DNA of 64,000 nucleotides from Halopiger aswanensis. Its GTDB lineage: Archaea; Halobacteriota; Halobacteria; Halobacteriales; Natrialbaceae. The translations under genes were made by a program, and so were the position numbers. The notes below the pieces were generated by a model, which was given only the letters and a program-made list of their open reading frames with translations, was not told the origin of the DNA and did no database searches. Numbering within the stretch: position 1 is the first letter of the stretch; each line of letters opens with the position of its first letter. Where the stretch lies: contig NZ_RAPO01000002.1 in NCBI RefSeq assembly GCF_003610195.1, positions 744,001-808,000 on the forward strand, in the 5' to 3' direction. Shown in pieces: positions 4,542-14,249 of the stretch.

Positions 4542-5177
4542 GTGGTGGGACAGAACCAACGGACCGACGCACTCGAGATCGAGACTGAAGCCGACACAGA
4601 GCCGGAAACTGAGACTGAGACCGAGTCCCCGACGCTGTCGAAGGGCGAAATCTTCGAGCTCCTCCGGAACCAGCGGCGGCGCTACGTCCTCCACTTCCTG
4701 AAACAGGACGGCCGCCCCGTCGAACTCGGCGACCTCGCCCAGCAGGTCGCCGCCTGGGAGTACGAGACGACGCCCGATCGGGTCACGCCGGAGCAACGAA
4801 AGCGCGTGTATACGACGCTCCAGCAGACCCATCTCCCGAAGATGGACAAAGCCGATATCCTCACGTTCGATTCGGATCGGGGCGTCATCGAATCGACCGA
4901 CCGGACCCGGGACATCAGCGTCTACCTCGAGATCGTCCCCGGCCACGAGTTCGCGTGGCGGGAACTGTACCTCTCGTTGGGCGCGATCAGTTGCGCGCTG
5001 GTCGCCGCACTCTGGCTCGAGATCTACCCGCTGACGGTGCTGTCGGGACTGACGTGGGCCGGCGTGATCGCCGTGACAGTAACGGTAACCGCGATCGCAC
5101 AGATCTACTACGAGCGAAACATGCGACTCGGCGCGAGCGAGCAGCCGCCGGAACTCAGTTACCGAGCTGACGACTGA
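4542..5177 (+). CDS. membrane-anchored winged-helix protein (DUF7344-type)
   Basis: 211 residues from GTG 4542, or 210 from GTG 4545, which is better spaced from the Shine-Dalgarno-like GAGGTGAT at 4532-4539. After an acidic Glu/Thr-rich leader (residues 8-30) comes a winged-helix domain of the type common in haloarchaea: [18 protein letters not shown], then a helix with LAQQVAAWE and the recognition region [19 protein letters not shown]. Two hydrophobic segments near the C-terminus (about 140-160 and 166-186) predict membrane anchoring. Such proteins are presumed transcription regulators, but no target is known to me. The promoter carries an inverted repeat that may be its own operator. The gene stands alone between coaBC and hpt. 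Confidence 0.8.
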
Positions 5178-5337
5178 CTGTGCCGTTGGCCCGATAGGCG
5201 GCCACACTCGTCGTCAGCAGGTCGGATCCGAACCGAAACCGCGACGGAACCCGGCTTCGCGTCGCGTGTCGAGCGTTCGCATTCGACGCGTTCCGACGGA
5301 TCGTCAACTTTTACTCCGCTACCGACCGACCGACGAC

Positions 5338-5907
5338 ATGGATCAACTCAAACAGTCGCTCCTCGAGGCGCCGATCATCGAGAAGAACGGCTATCACTAC
5401 TTCGTTCACCCGATCAGCGACGGCGTCCCGAAGCTCGATCCGACGCTCCTGCGGGAGATCGTCATCCGAATCATCCGAAAGGCCGAACTCGAGAACGTCG
5501 ACCGGATCGTCACGCCCGCGGCGATGGGGATTCACATCTCGACGGCCGTCTCCCTGATGACCGACATCCCGCTGACCGTGATCCGGAAGCGACAGTACGG
5601 CCTCGCGGACGAGGTCGCGATCTCCCAGCAGACCGGTTACTCGGAGAACGAGATGTACATCAACGACGTGCGCGAGGGCGAGCGCGTGCTCGTGCTCGAC
5701 GACGTGCTCTCGACCGGCGGCACGCTCGCGGCGGTGCTGGACGCGCTCGACGAGATCGGCGCCGAGGTCATCGACACGGTCGCAGTCATCAAGAAGGTCG
5801 GCGGCGAGAACAAGGTCGACGACGCCGGCTACGACGTGAAGACGCTGATCAACGTCGACGTCGTCGACGGCGAGGTCGTGATCGTCGACGAATCGGGCGA
5901 CGACTGA
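5338..5907 (+). CDS. hpt: hypoxanthine/guanine phosphoribosyltransferase (archaeal type)
   Basis: 189 residues. Purine-salvage enzyme that transfers a base to PRPP to give IMP or GMP. The PRPP-binding motif is [13 protein letters not shown] (about residues 121-133), preceded by a flexible-loop region with VIRKRQYGL. The N-terminal [22 protein letters not shown] is typical of the archaeal HGPRTase-like family. It is also annotated as adenine phosphoribosyltransferase in some genomes, so base specificity is not certain. The ATG at 5338 is chosen because codons upstream are non-conserved and a TATA-like CTTTTACT lies at about 5309-5316, 26 nt before it, consistent with a leaderless message. Monocistronic by spacing. 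Confidence 0.9.
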
Positions 5908-6212: not shown

Positions 6213-8090
6213 ATGTCCGATAGTTCGAATCGGAAGGGTGCTGGAAAATCGCGACGTCAAATGCTCGCTCTCCTGGGTGGGAGCGCAACGGCCGGACTCG
6301 CCGGCTGTTCGGCCCTCCTCGAAGGCGACGGGAACGGCGACGGAAACGGAAACGGCAACTCCAGCGGTAATGGTAACGGCAACGGTGGCGGCAACGACTA
6401 CGAAGTCAGCGAACACGCTGACAAGGCGCAGGCCGCCTGGGAGACCGTCCAAGAGAACGCGGGCCCCGACGGCGAGGAAGCTCGCACGCAGGCCTACGTC
6501 GAGATCGAAGAGGCCGTTCGGGACGACATGGTCATGCTCCCGCTGTATCACAGCAAGGGCGAAATGTTCTGGTACGACCGCGTCGACGTCCCGCGGGTGG
6601 GTGCGCTGGGTCCCCACCAGCAGACGCACAACGAGACGCAGATCGAAGGCGATACGGAACTGAATCTGGTCACCTCTTCCTTCGACGAGCTGGACCCGAT
6701 CATGTCGACCGACACGGCGTCCAGCGAGGTCATCAACCAGATGTACGAGACCCTCGTTCACTACCCGAACGGGGTCAACGAGATCGAAAACAAGCTCGTC
6801 GAGTCGTTCGAGACTTCCGAGGACGGGCTCACCTGGACGTTCACGCTCAAGGAAGACGTGACGTTCCACGGCGGCGAGGATCTGACGGCCGACGACGTCG
6901 TCTACTCGTTCCGTCGTCTCGCGGAATCCGAGTACAGCGAACGCTCGAACTTCCTCGTGGACACGCCGCTCGGTCTCGGCCTCGAGCACGAGGAAACCGA
7001 GGACGGCGGCATCGCCCCCGACTCCATCGGCGTCGAAGCGGTCGACGACCGAACGGTCGAACTGTCCCTTACCACGCCGCAGCCGGCGGCACTGGACATT
7101 CTCACCTACACCGCGTTCGCGGTCGTCCCCGAAGGAATCGTCGGCGACATCGAGGGCTACGACGGCGAGGTCGACCACAACGAGTTCGCGACGGGGATGG
7201 CCAACGGGACCGGTCCCTTCCAGTTCGACGAGTTCAACCCCGGCGAGGAGATGCGCGTCGTCCGCTTCGACGACTACCACGGCAGCACCGCGAACCTCGA
7301 GTCGATCCACTGGGAGATCAACGAGGACCCCGAATCCATCTTCACCTACATCATGGAGGGGAACGCGGACATCTTCCGCGACAGTCAGGTTCCGACCCCG
7401 CAGTACGACCCGAGCCTGATCGACGCCGAGGAAGACGACATGGGCCGAGAGGTCGGTACGTACGGCCCGCTCGAGAACGACGAAACCGTCAACTACCTCG
7501 GGGTCCCCGAACTGGGCACGTACTACTTCGCCTTCAACGTCAGCAACGTTCCGCGCCCCGTCCGACAGGCTATCGCGTACGTGACGGACCACCAGGAGTT
7601 CCTCGAGGACGTCCTCAAGCAACGCGGATTCGAAGCGTTCAGCTTCACGCCGCCGCGCATGTGGCCGACCGGTCAGGACGGCTACGATCAGTGGGTCGAC
7701 GAGTGGCAGTACGGCGTCAACGAAACCGACATCGAGAGCGCCCAGCAGGTCCTCGAAGAGGCCGGCTTCACCGCGGACGATCCGTTCGAGCTGACGGCCT
7801 CGACCTACGAATCCGGCCCCGAATACGCCGAGATGGCCGAGATCATCCGCCAGAAGCTCGCCGACCTCGGCGTCGACATCCAGAACCAGTCGACGCAGTT
7901 CTCGACGCTGCAGGACCGCGGCGAGGACGGCGACCTCGAAATGTACTCGCTCGGCTGGATCTGGAGCTGGCCGGACCCGGCGTACGGTCACTTCGGCTTC
8001 GAGCCGAAGAACACCGACACGTCCCGCATGCCGAACGAGGCGACCGGCTACTACCTCGACTGGCAGGTTAATCTGGACGAGGAGGCATAA
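6213..8090 (+). CDS. ABC transporter substrate-binding lipoprotein, family 5 (peptide/nickel type), apparently circularly permuted
   Basis: 625 residues. The Tat signal (SRRQMLALL, arginines 14-15) ends in the lipobox LAGC with Cys32, so it is a membrane-anchored extracytoplasmic lipoprotein. A Gly/Asn linker follows (38-61). Residues 65-135 (ARTQAYVEIEEAVRDD, VMLPLYHSKGEMFWYD) look like the segment that normally ends this family. The normal N-terminal start of the fold (ELNLVTSSFDELDPIMST) appears only at about residue 149. The chain then stops at YLDWQVNLDEEA, just where that C-terminal segment would be expected. WTFTLKEDVTFHGG and ADDVVYSFRR confirm the family. It is the first gene of a five-gene operon. 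The ligand is likely a peptide, but nickel or a sugar cannot be excluded. Confidence 0.9.
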   Translation: MSDSSNRKGAGKSRRQMLALLGGSATAGLAGCSALLEGDGNGDGNGNGNSSGNGNGNGGGNDYEVSEHADKAQAAWETVQENAGPDGEEARTQAYVEIEEAVRDDMVMLPLYHSKGEMFWYDRVDVPRVGALGPHQQTHNETQIEGDTELNLVTSSFDELDPIMSTDTASSEVINQMYETLVHYPNGVNEIENKLVESFETSEDGLTWTFTLKEDVTFHGGEDLTADDVVYSFRRLAESEYSERSNFLVDTPLGLGLEHEETEDGGIAPDSIGVEAVDDRTVELSLTTPQPAALDILTYTAFAVVPEGIVGDIEGYDGEVDHNEFATGMANGTGPFQFDEFNPGEEMRVVRFDDYHGSTANLESIHWEINEDPESIFTYIMEGNADIFRDSQVPTPQYDPSLIDAEEDDMGREVGTYGPLENDETVNYLGVPELGTYYFAFNVSNVPRPVRQAIAYVTDHQEFLEDVLKQRGFEAFSFTPPRMWPTGQDGYDQWVDEWQYGVNETDIESAQQVLEEAGFTADDPFELTASTYESGPEYAEMAEIIRQKLADLGVDIQNQSTQFSTLQDRGEDGDLEMYSLGWIWSWPDPAYGHFGFEPKNTDTSRMPNEATGYYLDWQVNLDEEA

Positions 8091-8259: not shown

Positions 8260-9327
8260 ATGAGTCGGTGGCGATACTTTATCAAGCGGCTCCTGTTATC
8301 GATCCCGGTCCTCTTTCTAGTGCTTACGTTCGTCTTTGCACTGCTCCGGATGGGACCGGTCGATCCCGTCGCTGCGCGGCTGGGTCCGGAAGCGTCCGGC
8401 GCCGAGGCCCAACGGATGCGCGAGCGACTCGGATTGAACGATCCCCTCTGGGAACAGTACCTCGACTTCGTCACGGACTTCCTGACGCTCGATCTGGGAC
8501 AGTCCTGGGTCATCTACGGGGACTGGGAAGTAACGTCCATTCTCGCGTTCGCGGCCCCGCCGACCCTCTGGCTCGGCTTTTGGGCGATCCTGCTCCCGCT
8601 GTTCATCGGCATCCCGCTTGGCTTCTACGCCGGGCTGAATCCGAACAGCCGGAGCGATTATCTGGCCTCCGTCGGCGGGATCCTCTGGCAGGCGATGCCC
8701 AACTTCTGGTTGAGTATCATCCTGCTGGCGCTCCTGCGCCAGACGATGGACGGCGGCTGGTTCGGCTTCGACTGGTACACGTTCGGTCCGGAGCTCGGTA
8801 GCATCACGGGAACGCCCGATCTGGCGTTCTTCTCGGTCAACTGGGTCGATCTCGGCGCGGCGGCGGTCCCGCTCGTGACCGGCATCGACTGGGGGGCGCT
8901 CGCGACCGATATCAAGTTCATCCTCCCGCCGGCGCTGGTCCTCGGCTCCGCCTCGATGGCAGCCGAACTCCGCATCGGCCGTACGGCCATCCTCGAGACG
9001 ATCAACTCGAACTACGTCGAGACGGCCAAGGCGAAGGGGCTGACGAACCGCGTCATCGTCTGGAAACACGTCTTCAGGAACGCACTGATCCCGCTGGTGC
9101 CGGTCATTACCAACGAGGCGACGCTGTTGATCGGCGGCTCCGTCATCGTCGAATCGATCTTCAACATCAACGGCCTCGGCAGGATCTTCTTCCTCGCATC
9201 GGTACAGGGTGACCTGCCGCTGGCGGGCGCGCTGTTGTTCATCTTCACGTTGATCATCATCTTCCTGAACGTCCTGCAGGACTTCCTGTACACGATCATC
9301 GATCCACGAGTGGGGTACGAACGATGA
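8260..9327 (+). CDS. ABC transporter permease, DppB/OppB type
   Basis: 355 residues, slightly longer than bacterial DppB (~340). An N-terminal membrane segment (about 10-30) is followed by MGPVDPVAARLG and the helix RLGLNDPLWEQYLDF that is typical of DppB-type permeases. Five further membrane segments follow. The EAA loop, which contacts the ATPases, is read near residues 245-262 (ETAKAKGLTNRVIVWKHVF). The last segment ends in DFLYTIIDPRVGYER, the family's usual C-terminus. The gene overlaps the next permease by 4 bp (ATGA), indicating translational coupling. It forms the channel with the DppC-type subunit. Confidence 0.93.
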   Translation: MSRWRYFIKRLLLSIPVLFLVLTFVFALLRMGPVDPVAARLGPEASGAEAQRMRERLGLNDPLWEQYLDFVTDFLTLDLGQSWVIYGDWEVTSILAFAAPPTLWLGFWAILLPLFIGIPLGFYAGLNPNSRSDYLASVGGILWQAMPNFWLSIILLALLRQTMDGGWFGFDWYTFGPELGSITGTPDLAFFSVNWVDLGAAAVPLVTGIDWGALATDIKFILPPALVLGSASMAAELRIGRTAILETINSNYVETAKAKGLTNRVIVWKHVFRNALIPLVPVITNEATLLIGGSVIVESIFNINGLGRIFFLASVQGDLPLAGALLFIFTLIIIFLNVLQDFLYTIIDPRVGYER

Positions 9328-11063
9328 GTACACTGGATTCAGCTACCACGACCGAACCGGAGCCCGACGACACGGTGCTCCGTGAACGCATCGACGCGAA
9401 CCCGCGGCCGGCGCTCGGCTGGCTGGCCGGGTTCGCCGTACTGATCGCCCTCGAGTTCGGCCGGTACATGAGTTGGACCTACAGCCTGATCGACGCGATC
9501 AAGTACGTGATCGACCTGGTCCGGCTGCTACCGGACTGGATCGGCGGCTCCATCGGCGCAGCGACGACGCCGATCGTCGGCTACTTCGTCTCCGACGGCG
9601 TCTCGCTGCTCATCCTGTTTGGCGTCGCCGTGGTCCTCACGAACGTCCTTCCCTGGCAGGTGACCGGCCGATTCGATCCCGACCTGCCAGAGCGAACGCT
9701 GCTCTATCTCGAGCGCGTCGTCCTGACCGTCGTCCTTGCAGTCCTCGTCGTGCTAATGGCGTTTACACCGGTCGGCGGGATGGTCAACGGTGCGATCGAC
9801 GGCGTGTTCAACGCGCTTTCCTCGATTCCGACGCTGACCAGCCGTGAGGTCATTCCGAATCAGGGGTATCAGACGCCGGACGGCGGCTGGGAGGGCACGT
9901 TCCTCGGCCTCTCGCCGGCCGTCGCGTGGGGTATTCGCGTGCTCCTGGTCTACGGCTACGCGCTCGCCATGTTAGCCTGGCTCTGGAAGGGCTACAACGT
10001 CTTCCGCGAGAACTACCGACAGGCGGACTGGACCCCGCGCGACGACACGCTGAACCGATTCAGCAACCACCTCTGGGGGATATTCGGCTTCGTCGTCGTG
10101 TTCCTGTTTATCGTGACGGCGCTGTGGGCGCCGGCCGTCAGTACGGTTACGGCGGAACAGAACATCTACACGCCCTACGCGTACGAGATACAGTACCTCG
10201 ACGACAGCGGCGACGTCAGTACGATCACGCCCGGACAGGCGAATCTCAACAGCGTCTCGGACGGGCAGAACAATATCGGACTGTTGAGTTACGACGACTA
10301 CGGCCGCTGGGCACCGCTCGGAACGACGCCGAGCGGACAGAACATGTTGACACACATCGCCTACGGCGCACAGACGTCGCTCGTGATCGGCTTACTCTCG
10401 ATCGGGCTCGGCGGGCTAATCGCCGTGGTCATGTCGCTGCTGACCGCCTACTACAAGGGACTCGTCGACGTGCTGACGGTGATCACCAGCGACACGATCA
10501 TCTCGATTCCGGCGTTCCTGCTGGTCATGATGCTCTCCGTGATCTTCCAAGACGGGGGGCACCCGATCGCGGAACCGCTCGACGGCGGGATCCTCCTCGG
10601 CCTGATCTTCGCGTTCGCCTACTGGCCGGGGATGTGGCGGACGATCCGCGGCCCGTCGTTACAGGTCGTCGAAGAGGAGTGGGTCGACGCTGCACGCAGT
10701 TACGGGCAGTCGCCCGCGAACACAATGCGTAAACACATGGCCCCGTATATTGCGGGCTATATCATGATCTACGGCTCTCTGCTGCTCGGCGGTATCATCA
10801 TCTCTACGGCGGCGCTGTCGTTCCTCGGACTAGGTATCGAAGCGCCGACGCCCGAATGGGGGCGGCTCATCAGCGACGGTCGGGCGTACCTCTCGACGGC
10901 CTCGTGGCACGTCGCGACCATCCCCGGCCTGATGATCGTCCTCGTCGTAACCGCGTTCAACGCGCTCGGTGACGGCCTCCGCGACGCAATCGACCCCGAA
11001 GCCGATACCGGCGGTGACGGCGCCGACGATGCCGGTGCCGCGGCTGCCGGAGGTGGTGGATAA
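9324..11063 (+). CDS. ABC transporter permease, DppC/OppC type, with large N-terminal membrane extension
   Basis: 579 residues against ~300 for bacterial DppC. The C-terminal ~240 residues are a normal permease domain: LTHIAYGAQTSLVIG, several membrane helices, the EAA loop WVDAARSYGQSPANTMRKH, and the C-terminal LRDAIDPEA. In front are roughly 240 extra residues with about four or five hydrophobic segments (about 30-48, 70-110, 130-160, 195-220), and then the family's usual first helix near 245-270. An extracytoplasmic loop with YTPYAYEIQYLDDSG precedes the permease core. The tail is Gly/Ala/Asp-rich. The gene overlaps both neighbours (4 bp, then one base), so it is in the operon. The role of the extension is unknown. 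Confidence 0.88.
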   Translation: MSTLDSATTTEPEPDDTVLRERIDANPRPALGWLAGFAVLIALEFGRYMSWTYSLIDAIKYVIDLVRLLPDWIGGSIGAATTPIVGYFVSDGVSLLILFGVAVVLTNVLPWQVTGRFDPDLPERTLLYLERVVLTVVLAVLVVLMAFTPVGGMVNGAIDGVFNALSSIPTLTSREVIPNQGYQTPDGGWEGTFLGLSPAVAWGIRVLLVYGYALAMLAWLWKGYNVFRENYRQADWTPRDDTLNRFSNHLWGIFGFVVVFLFIVTALWAPAVSTVTAEQNIYTPYAYEIQYLDDSGDVSTITPGQANLNSVSDGQNNIGLLSYDDYGRWAPLGTTPSGQNMLTHIAYGAQTSLVIGLLSIGLGGLIAVVMSLLTAYYKGLVDVLTVITSDTIISIPAFLLVMMLSVIFQDGGHPIAEPLDGGILLGLIFAFAYWPGMWRTIRGPSLQVVEEEWVDAARSYGQSPANTMRKHMAPYIAGYIMIYGSLLLGGIIISTAALSFLGLGIEAPTPEWGRLISDGRAYLSTASWHVATIPGLMIVLVVTAFNALGDGLRDAIDPEADTGGDGADDAGAAAAGGGG

Positions 11064-12418
11064 TGTCGCTGGAAACAACTCCCGATGAGACGGCTGCCGA
11101 GACCGAGCCGATCATCGAGGTCCGCAATCTCCAGACGGCCTTCTTCACCGACAAGGAGACCATCCGTGCCGTCGACAACGTCTCGTTCGACATCCGCCCC
11201 GGCGAAACCGTCGGGATCGTCGGCGAGAGCGGTTCGGGGAAGAGCGTCACCGCCCGATCGATCATGGGTCTCGTCGACTCACCCGGCCGAGTCCTCGAGG
11301 GCAGTAGTATTCGCTTTAGCCACCTCGAGACGGTCCAGGAGTACGCCGAGCGGTTCCCCGACCGAACGGTCGATCTCGAGTCACTGAGCGCCCAGTACGA
11401 TCCCGTCGACCTGTTCGGTCGGCGCGGCGTCGACGTGACGCCGGCCGACCTCGGATACGAGAGGGCCGCCGACGTTCCGCTGGCGGATTTCGTCGCCGCC
11501 GGCTACGGCGACGAGGTCGGCGTGGATTCGGACGCCTGCGTGTTCGTTACCGAGGGCTCGGCCGACTCGCCGAGCGATATCAGGGACGGCTTCGTCGAAC
11601 TCACCCGTCTCAGCGGCGAGTCCCAACGGCTCATGCGCGGCGGCCGGATCGCGATGGTCTTTCAGGATCCGCTGACGAGCCTCAACCCCGTCTACACGGT
11701 CGGCAACCAGATCAAGGAAGCGCTCCGACTGCATCAGGGGCTGCGCGGCGAGGAAGCGACCCAGGAAGCGATCCAACTGCTCGAGGACGTCGGGATCCCC
11801 GACGCCCGGCGGCGGGTCGACGAGTATCCCCACCAGTTCTCCGGCGGGATGCGCCAGCGGGCCGTCATCGCGATGGCACTGGCCTGCGAGCCGGAAGTGC
11901 TGATCTGCGACGAGCCGACGACCGCCCTCGACGTGACGATTCAGGCCCAGATTCTCGACCTGCTCACGGAAATCCAGGACGAGCGCGATCTCGCGATGAT
12001 GTTCATCACTCACGACATGGGCGTCATCGCGGAGATCAGCGACCGCGTCAACGTCATGTACGCCGGCGAGGTCGTCGAGCGAGCCGACGTTGAAGACCTG
12101 TTCGCGAACCCGAAACACCCCTACACGCAGGGGCTGTTGCAGTCGATTCCGGGACAACAGGACGGCGATCGCCTCCAGACCATCGAAGGGAACGTCCCGA
12201 CGCCGAACGAACCTGCGACCTACTGTCGGTTCGCGCCGCGGTGTCCCAAGGCCTTCGGCGAGTGTGAGGCGGTCCATCCCGAGCACGTCCCGGTTGACGA
12301 CGATGCACCCGACCACACCGCAGCCTGTCTGCTCTACCCTGAACAGCAATCGAAGACGGCAGCGGTCGCCGAACACCGACGGCGAAACGAGAACCGATCC
12401 GGAGGGAGCTCCGAATGA
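11063..12418 (+). CDS. ABC transporter ATPase, DppD/OppD type, with ~95-residue insertion
   Basis: 451 residues (family ~330). The Walker A GESGSGKS is at 54-61, the Q-loop Gln at 201 ([12 protein letters not shown]), the signature SGGMRQR at 260-266, the Walker B with CDEPTTALD at 282-290, and the switch His in FITHDMG near 317. The C-terminal oligopeptide-type cysteine motif is complete (Cys388, 394, 401, 422). Between Walker A and the Q-loop, residues about 86-180 are an insertion ([27 protein letters not shown]) that is not part of the bacterial family. It lies in the ABC-beta region, on the face that would meet the other subunits. Cytoplasmic; pairs with the next gene product. It overlaps that gene by 4 bp. 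Confidence 0.92.
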
Positions 12419-13758
12419 GCCAGCAAGCTATCCAACCAGACGCCGACGTACCGTCCGGAAACGACGACGCGATGATCGAGGTCCGGGACCTGAAAACCTA
12501 CTACGACAACGGTGGTCTCTTCGGCGGGACGCCAGTCAAGGCCGTCGACGGCGTCAGCTTCGACATCCGTCGCGGCGAGACGCTCGGCCTCGTCGGCGAA
12601 TCCGGCTGTGGAAAGACGACGCTCGGTCGAACGCTCCTCCAGCTCGAGGAGGCGACCGACGGCACCGTCGCGTTCGACGGCGTCGACATCACGGAACTCG
12701 ACGGCGACGAGCTTCACGAGTGGCGCCGCAACGCCCAGATGGTGTTCCAGGATCCTCACTCGAGTCTCAACGACCGGATGACGGTCGGCGAGATCGTCCG
12801 CGAACCGCTTGACGTTCACGAGTGGGAGACGCCGCGTGAACGACGCCAGCGGGTCAAGGAACTGCTCGCGACGGTCGGCCTCCAGCGCGAACACTACTAC
12901 CGCTACCCTCACCAGTTCTCCGGGGGGCAGCGCCAGCGGATCAGCATCGCCCGCACGCTGGCGCTCGAGCCGGATTTCGTCGTCCTCGACGAGCCGGTCT
13001 CGGCGCTGGACGTCTCGGTGCAGGCCGAGATCATCAACCTGCTCGAAGATCTTCAGGAGGAGTTCGGGCTGACGTACCTGTTTATCGCCCACGACCTCTC
13101 GGTCGTCCGGCACATCTGCGATCGGGTCGCGGTGATGTACCTCGGAAACATCATGGAGATCGGACCGACGGAGGAACTGTTCGCGAACCCGTCGAATCCG
13201 TACACCCACTCGCTGCTGTCGGCGATTCCCGAACCCGACCCGACGAGCACTCGAGAGCGAATTACCCTCCACGGGACGCCGCCGAACCCCCGCTATCCGC
13301 CGTCGGGCTGTCCGTTCAGCACGCGCTGTCCGGCCCGCATTCGTCCCGAAGAGTACCGCGACCTCGACGACGAACTGTGGACCCGGCTGAACACGCTCCG
13401 CAGCACGCTCCACGAGCGCCAGCGCGCGGATCGCTCGGTCCGCGAGCGCCTCCGCGCCGCAATGGGACGGAGCACCCGGTTCGGCACGGTCGACGAAATC
13501 TACGACGAACTGTTCGGCGACGTCGAGGTCCCGTCGAAGGTCCAGTCCGTTCTGGACGAGATCGCAACCCACGTGCGTAACTACGACGAGGACGAAGCCC
13601 TCGCCGTGTTCCACGAGGAGTTCGGCAGCGTCTGCGAGGCACAGACCCCGTCGTACCACCAGCCATCCAGTGATAGCGAGCGCAAGAGCCTCTGTCACCG
13701 CCACGACGACGAGGACTACCGCTCGCCCGACGACGTCCTCGATCAGCGCCACCGGTGA
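12415..13758 (+). CDS. ABC transporter ATPase, DppF/OppF type, with insertion in the C-terminal cysteine motif
   Basis: 447 residues (family ~330). The Walker A GESGCGKT is at 61-68, the Q-loop in [13 protein letters not shown] near 112, the signature SGGQRQR at 169-175, and the Walker [12 protein letters not shown] at 189-199, with FIAHDLS following. The C-terminal domain should hold four closely spaced cysteines. Here GCPFSTRCP gives Cys299 and Cys305, then about 100 extra residues intervene (a basic helical stretch with [20 protein letters not shown]), and the second half returns with Cys407 and Cys427. It starts with an ATGA overlap of the preceding ATPase. Last gene of the transporter; the next gene begins 3 bp later. 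Confidence 0.92.
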
Positions 13759-13760
13759 CG

Positions 13761-14249
13761 ATGTCATCGCTCGAGCGCGTGCAGTTCCGACGCCGACTCC
13801 GTGTCTGGGCGGACGCGCTCACGTATGCGTTCGCGCTCACGGCAATCGTCGGCGCCGGCTGTTTCGCCCTCGGGTTCGCGACCGGCGGCGGCGCCGTCCG
13901 CGCCAAAGAGTTGCTCTTCGTCGTCGGCTGGCTTCTCCTCGCGTACGCAACGGTCCGACTGTGGCCGTCCTCTCCGGCGGAGGTCGACTCGGGCTCCAGT
14001 TCTCGTTTCGGGCCCGGATCAGGTCCTGACACCAGATCCGCGACCGCCTCTCGTTCGCACGGCGGCGCGGTCGGAGACCGGCTCCCGTCGACGCGCTTTC
14101 AGACGTTCGTGCAGTCGCTGCCGCCCGTCCGCTGGATCCAGCCGCCGGCCCCCGAGCACCGGCTGACGCCGCCGGGAAAGGTACTCGTCGGTAGCCTCCT
14201 GATTTTGCTGCTGTCGTTCCTGCTCGAGACCGTCTTCGGGATCGCCTGA
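13761..14249 (+). CDS. conserved haloarchaeal membrane protein, unknown function
   Basis: 162 residues from ATG 13761, which begins 2 bp after the stop of the ATPase gene; a GTG at 13755 is less likely because it overlaps that stop. It has two membrane segments near the N-terminus (about 19-40 and 49-66), a polar Ser/Gly/Arg-rich middle, the conserved-looking FQTFVQSLPPVRWIQPP, and a final membrane segment ending at the C-terminus (about 140-160). Its position right behind the transporter operon suggests co-transcription, but nothing in the protein resembles a transporter subunit. I do not recognise a function. Confidence 0.75.
   Translation: MSSLERVQFRRRLRVWADALTYAFALTAIVGAGCFALGFATGGGAVRAKELLFVVGWLLLAYATVRLWPSSPAEVDSGSSSRFGPGSGPDTRSATASRSHGGAVGDRLPSTRFQTFVQSLPPVRWIQPPAPEHRLTPPGKVLVGSLLILLLSFLLETVFGIA

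Follow-up and report, generated by a model that had tools for sequence, protein, structure and literature searches.

A circularly permuted family-5 substrate-binding lipoprotein at the head of a haloarchaeal Dpp operon, and the probable recurrence of permutation among its archaeal relatives

The binding-protein gene and its operon

The window, a 64,000-nucleotide stretch of the Halopiger aswanensis genome, contains a gene for a family-5 substrate-binding lipoprotein, whose parts are listed in Table 1 together with the genes that follow it. The protein carries an RR...LAGC motif, a Tat lipobox identified by motif scan. The Pfam model SBP_bac_5 (PF00496) aligned with residues 190-591 over profile positions 1-355 of 368 (E 5e-72), and the core domain scored 243.6 bits against a curated cut-off of 32.4. 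The NCBIfam model Opp4A aligned with the body of the protein at residues 140-589 (model 29-467 of 556). Only family-5 models from Pfam and NCBIfam aligned to the body, and the protein falls outside the type I/cluster B sugar-binding fold of cluster Bc.

The gene heads an intact DppBCDF operon. In other words, an exported lipoprotein adjoins a full set of DppBCDF-type transporter genes, with PF00528 found twice and ABC_tran together with oligo_HPY found twice. The operon and homology argue that the window protein serves a Dpp-type importer as its binding protein. A phosphoribosyltransferase gene lies directly 5' of the operon (window 5266-5907) and occupies the matching place in three of the named CP-A loci examined (L095, L096, and L097). 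Genes for a DUF7344 protein (4542-5177) and a DUF7555 protein (13755-14249) flank the region, and a siderophore synthetase gene of the IucA/IucC-FhuF type is located at 617-2752.

Table 1. Parts of the binding-protein gene and the operon downstream (window positions)
Feature	Position	Strand	Basis
Family-5 substrate-binding lipoprotein gene, circularly permuted type CP-A, 625 aa	6213..8090	+	
Tat-type lipoprotein signal, residues 1-32 (RRQMLALLGGSATAGLAGC)	6213..6308	+	sequence, motif scan
Linker rich in Gly/Asn, residues 33-65	6309..6407	+	sequence
Moved segment, residues 66-145, homologous to C-terminus of canonical sisters	6408..6647	+	HMM, alignment
Joint of old C-terminus and old N-terminus, residues 143-149	6639..6659	+	
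Body from old mature N-terminus, residues 147-619	6651..8069	+	Pfam and HMMs
New C-terminus, residues 620-625 and stop; C-terminal helices follow here in canonical sisters	8070..8090	+	
DppB-type permease	8260..9327	+	PF00528
DppC-type permease, N-terminal extension	9324..11063	+	PF00528
DppD-type ATPase	11063..12418	+	PF00005 and oligo_HPY
DppF-type ATPase	12415..13758	+	PF00005 and oligo_HPY

Evidence for a circular permutation

A sequence-only reading of the window had placed motifs of the family C-terminus right behind the Tat lipoprotein signal and the Gly/Asn linker; the open reading frame, the lipobox, the linker, and the quoted motifs were all found as it described them. One HMM was trained on the C-terminal 84 residues of 21 sisters in canonical order and on no permuted protein. 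It matched the window protein at residues 66-145 only (96.7 bits, E 4.2e-30), as expected from the claim that the N-terminal piece is the family C-terminus. An HMM of the canonical mature N-terminus matched at residues 147-265 (E 2.4e-48). Likewise, a profile made from the last quarter of various canonical family-5 proteins was divided in the window protein: model positions 75-157 matched its N-terminal end (E 1e-16) and model positions 2-85 its C-terminal end (E 2e-18). Protein positions in this comparison refer to an open frame 3 residues longer than the window protein. A doubled canonical profile gave a single unbroken match across the joint (790 bits, model 469-1020), compared with 682 + 90 bits when the same comparison was made as two inverted pieces.

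At the residue level, ADKAQAAWETVQENAGP...MLPLYHSKGEMFWYDRVDVPRVGALG of the window protein aligned with SQKAQEAWETVVDNPEP...MPLYHQVMEQFYYDHVDAAPFGAMG of a canonical sister (L043), in which it is placed after GYYLDW. The stop of the window protein comes 7 residues past GYYLDWQ, so that the protein does end where the moved segment would be expected. A second, complete C-terminal segment at the protein end, which the sequence-only reading had named as evidence against a permutation, was looked for and not found there. Every segment of the canonical protein is present exactly once, in rotated order and with the old termini joined. Instead of the canonical N-to-C order, the C-terminal segment stands at 66-145 and the body at 147-619, and this rotated order makes the protein a permuted variant of family 5 rather than a standard member. 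With the segment and body homologies in inverted order and a doubled profile that passes the joint, these sequence comparisons confirm the proposal of a circular permutant of a family-5 binding protein.

Could residues 60-140 be an unrelated or duplicated extra N-terminal domain in a protein that is merely truncated at its C-terminus? The piece of ~80 residues, searched alone, drew no match in Pfam or in a PDB phmmer search, a result that might suit an extra domain and that is uninformative rather than negative. Against NCBIfam Opp4A, the isolated piece gave a weak match at the C-terminus of the model (494-547 of 556, E 0.08). The permutation was seen securely because orthologues and sisters were compared; the isolated piece gave little. 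The canonical C-terminal HMM matches exactly this piece, once; 27 other orthologues conserve it, with the same complement at the end; and the doubled profile runs through without a break. These tests refute an extra domain combined with truncation, which we regard as extremely improbable.

Structure prediction was less informative than the sequence tests. AlphaFold2 was run twice with 18 homologues, for the full-length and the mature protein, and gave weak models (mean pLDDT 57 and 56, pTM 0.55 and 0.50) that are uninformative at the termini. A Foldseek search with the weak model returned MppA, DppE, OppA, NikA, and DppA among its nearest neighbors (E about 1e-17, probability 1.00), with TM-scores of only 0.30-0.43 by query length for models of pLDDT 57/56. 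In the first model the cut falls between a strand and a helix, in a region of low confidence. The bridge from the old C-terminus to the old N-terminus measures 0-8 residues in CP-A orthologues, with one exception of about 25 residues in an independent CP-A protein (L124). This short bridge and general knowledge of the fold indirectly suggest that the old termini lie close in space.

Distribution and maintenance of the CP-A order

In 125 genomes surveyed from the family of the window genome, the matches fell cleanly into two sets. Proteins of the first set aligned with the window protein over its full length. In the second set, the match was limited to about 140-619 at no more than 59% identity, and the missing piece was located at the C-terminus. 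The comparison involved 28 permuted orthologues and 22 canonical sisters, and the permuted ones were without the C-terminal segment at their end. In the class as a whole, a joint-spanning profile (A3) gave full matches across the joint in at least ~73 of 391 genomes among the matches listed, a number that was counted by hand and takes in CP-A, CP-B, and CP-D proteins. These matches were distributed over families f1, f2, f3, f4, f7, f9, and f10. Named CP-A carriers include Natronococcus jeotgali, Natrinema thermotolerans, Natrinema mahii, Natronorubrum sulfidifaciens, and Halopiger goleimassiliensis, and further carriers are Natronoglomus, Natronosalvus, several Halovenus, and several Halorubrum. 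The suggestion that other haloarchaeal binding proteins share this order proved sound, with 27 further orthologues in the family survey in addition to the named carriers. By homology, CP-A is present in several families of haloarchaea. As judged from the comparison with sisters, it is a derived state inside a mixed family, because sisters at the same operon retain the canonical order.

The order SBP-DppB-C-D-F was common to 14 of the 14 loci compared, ten of them permuted (L209, L095-L109) and four canonical (L208, L210, L211, and L212). Gene order is therefore kept behind both versions, which indicates that the permutation took place within an orthologous operon. For the moved segment the dN/dS ratio was about 0.14-0.34, and for the body it was 0.09-0.34. 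Such low values indicate that both parts are maintained; in other words, substitution ratios show CP-A to be under purifying selection.

Two parts of the gene swapped by faulty assembly or by a sequencing artefact would also yield a rotated order, and nothing beyond the oddity itself speaks for such a swap. Many genomes sequenced independently of one another, and named records as well, repeat the order, and the reading frame is intact and under purifying selection. An artefact is refuted by this recurrence and is rated even less probable than an extra domain; the rotated order is a feature of the lineage, as had been surmised.

Two CP-A proteins have unusual additions. One (L041, genome G120) bears at its new C-terminus another Gly/Asn/Thr-rich repeat (NETGGNETGG...), which resembles the linker behind the lipobox. 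The other (L120, G248:C1:2519626-2524171) is a 975-aa frame in which a protein-kinase-like N-terminal half and a membrane- or signal-like stretch precede a CP-A binding protein. It resembles a receptor kinase whose sensor is a binding protein, the kinase being assigned by eye only.

Other cut points

Cut points were placed on a canonical profile of 552 columns. The window protein, of type CP-A, is cut at about column 469. The cut is at about 345 in CP-B (L121, L125-L128, L133, L134, and L164) and at about 116 in CP-D (L148 and L169). CP-C is cut at about 373; L005 and L007 of the window genome are of this type, as are L158, L163, L172-L178, L181, L182, and L186, and the type extends over several distant subfamilies. 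Profile alignment thus shows archaeal family-5 proteins permuted at no fewer than four cut points, with CP-B, CP-C, and CP-D found besides CP-A in haloarchaea. Separate support came from Pfam positions, as 287-359 lie upstream of 2-286 in one frame in the window genome, and this inversion recurs in other genomes. The window genome encodes 13 family-5 proteins, of which the window protein (L003), L005, and L007 have a permuted order.

The haloarchaeal permuted types, CP-B, CP-C, and CP-D included, keep the signal peptide or Tat lipobox at the N-terminus. A CP-C protein of genome G573 (L191) has a C-terminal membrane anchor (PGFGVIAVIAGVMAATYLLRRRR) in place of a lipobox. Tat export, which handles folded proteins, was considered as what permits permutation; this idea is weakened by two permuted proteins (L192 and L193) that have no twin-arginine motif.

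Independent origins and possible reversals

For tree building, permuted sequences were first rotated in silico to the canonical order. The CP-A orthologues formed one clade (support 100/99), and a canonical protein, L048, fell inside it. In a broader tree, canonical L048 and L119 were nested and L137 was basal. Holding the CP-A rows together without L048 and L119 was rejected on the full length (AU p 0.002 and 0.016) and only marginally so on the body alone (p 0.056). One gain of CP-A followed by reversals in L048/L119 is the better reading of these trees, not a proof, and it is graded only as likely because the body-alone test was marginal. A single origin for all CP-A proteins including L124 was rejected (p 2e-10), so that, on the tree, L124 is a separate CP-A event. 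CP-B formed a clade of its own, and canonical sisters stand between CP-A and CP-B/CP-D. Outside the haloarchaea, in family f15, the CP-C proteins L192 and L193 were nested among canonical copies at about 80% identity (SH-aLRT 100). The resolved branches of these trees show that at least four independent origins are required: the main CP-A clade, L124, CP-B, and the CP-C proteins of f15. Haloarchaeal CP-C and CP-D are probably further independent origins, the deep branches being weak. The trees also suggest two reversals to the canonical order, which are less certain than the origins.

A different history would have one ancient permutation or fused duplicate behind all archaeal permuted family-5 proteins, with the cut point shifting later. 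The poor resolution of the deep branches leaves room for it, and many CP-C proteins in distant subfamilies share one cut point. However, the separate position of L124, the nesting of L192 and L193 in a canonical clade, and the canonical sisters that separate CP-A from CP-B and CP-D all argue against it, as do several cases in which canonical copies are firmly nested between permuted types. We consider a single ancient origin unlikely. Recurrent and possibly reversible permutation, with at least four cut points, at least 4-6 independent origins, two returns to the canonical order, and a signal peptide retained throughout, is the probable history.

How did the permutations arise?

Recent permutation was found in one f15 genus, in which permuted proteins (L201, L202, and L204) differ from canonical ones (L203, L205, and L206) by two swapped blocks. 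The blocks share 83-86% protein identity and 77-80% DNA identity, and copies ~85% identical within one genus point to a recent event. The f15 joint retains SEEQKDTITIGV, which resembles the VEEKAITIGV linker of a canonical copy. Such a linker-like remnant would be expected if two copies fused and were then trimmed. A search around the recently permuted f15 genes for remnants of a tandem duplicate, or for an intermediate, found none. The f15 binding-protein gene runs divergently from DppBCDF in the permuted lineage (L201) but in the same direction as the permease in canonical L207; a local rearrangement therefore also separates the two forms.

The ~80 residues that close the family-5 fold have been shifted to a place behind the signal-peptide linker and ahead of the old mature N-terminus, with the old termini bridged by few residues, as the alignments show. 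The change most likely began with a duplication within or of the gene, followed by in-frame fusion and the trimming of both ends behind the retained signal peptide. Given the operon and homology, the protein most likely folds like DppA/OppA; outside the cell it would capture peptides or similar solutes, which it would pass to the DppBCDF transporter. What the permutation alters is the point of the chain that is anchored to the membrane; the make-up of the protein is unchanged. Similar changes have been repeated in archaeal family-5 proteins at differing cut points, independently in several cases. Taken as a whole, a permuted Dpp/Opp-type lipoprotein that captures peptides or other solutes and arose by duplication, fusion, and trimming is very probably the correct explanation.

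Is the permutation adaptive? A moved anchor might relieve strain on the binding cleft of a tethered protein or improve its docking to the permease. Permutation recurs in cell-surface lipoproteins of cells that have no outer membrane, and a like idea was raised for TpMglB-2, which is also a tethered permutant (PMC4990184). However, the same operon has a permuted orthologue in some species and a canonical one in related species, which neutral change fits too, and reversals would speak against a lasting benefit. An adaptive role is tentative, and somewhat doubtful, on this evidence.

Significance and comparison with known systems

Reports of natural circular permutations usually concern single, old events. 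In the present case, several permutations of different ages are seen in one widespread transporter component. The DNA of recent permuted and unpermuted pairs can be aligned and both forms serve the same operon, so direct tests are possible of how permutations arise and whether the position of the tether matters for ABC import. If the reading of recurrent, reversible permutation is true, the family provides a natural experiment in chain topology and in tethering to the membrane. There is also a warning for annotation: Pfam's middle-only model conceals the rotation, which also escapes C-terminal family models. Permuted scaffolds already tried out by nature are a useful basis for peptide biosensors.

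Searches of the open-licence full-text literature turned up no description of permuted binding proteins, whether of family 5 or from haloarchaea, and none of the 60 PDB matches listed for the joint profile (0/60) spans the joint. The window protein resembles DppA, OppA, and NikA (family 5, cluster C, PF00496) in its SBP_bac_5 domain, its Dpp-type operon, and its Foldseek neighbors, but their canonical order ends with the segment that stands first in the window protein. The canonical haloarchaeal sisters L043 and L044 have a body that is 58-59% identical and the same segment, and the L043 locus (L210) has the same DppBCDF operon; unlike in the window protein, their segment is C-terminal. Among the literature found, the nearest precedent is TpMglB-2 (Tp0684) of Treponema pallidum, a permuted glucose-binding lipoprotein termed 'cluster Bc', whose authors suggested a connection between permutation and membrane tethering (PMC4990184). 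Both are permuted, membrane-tethered ABC binding proteins with a conserved lineage of permuted homologues. However, TpMglB-2 belongs to a different class (type I/cluster B, binding sugars) and represents one topology, whereas archaeal family 5 combines several cut points with independent origins and possible reversals.
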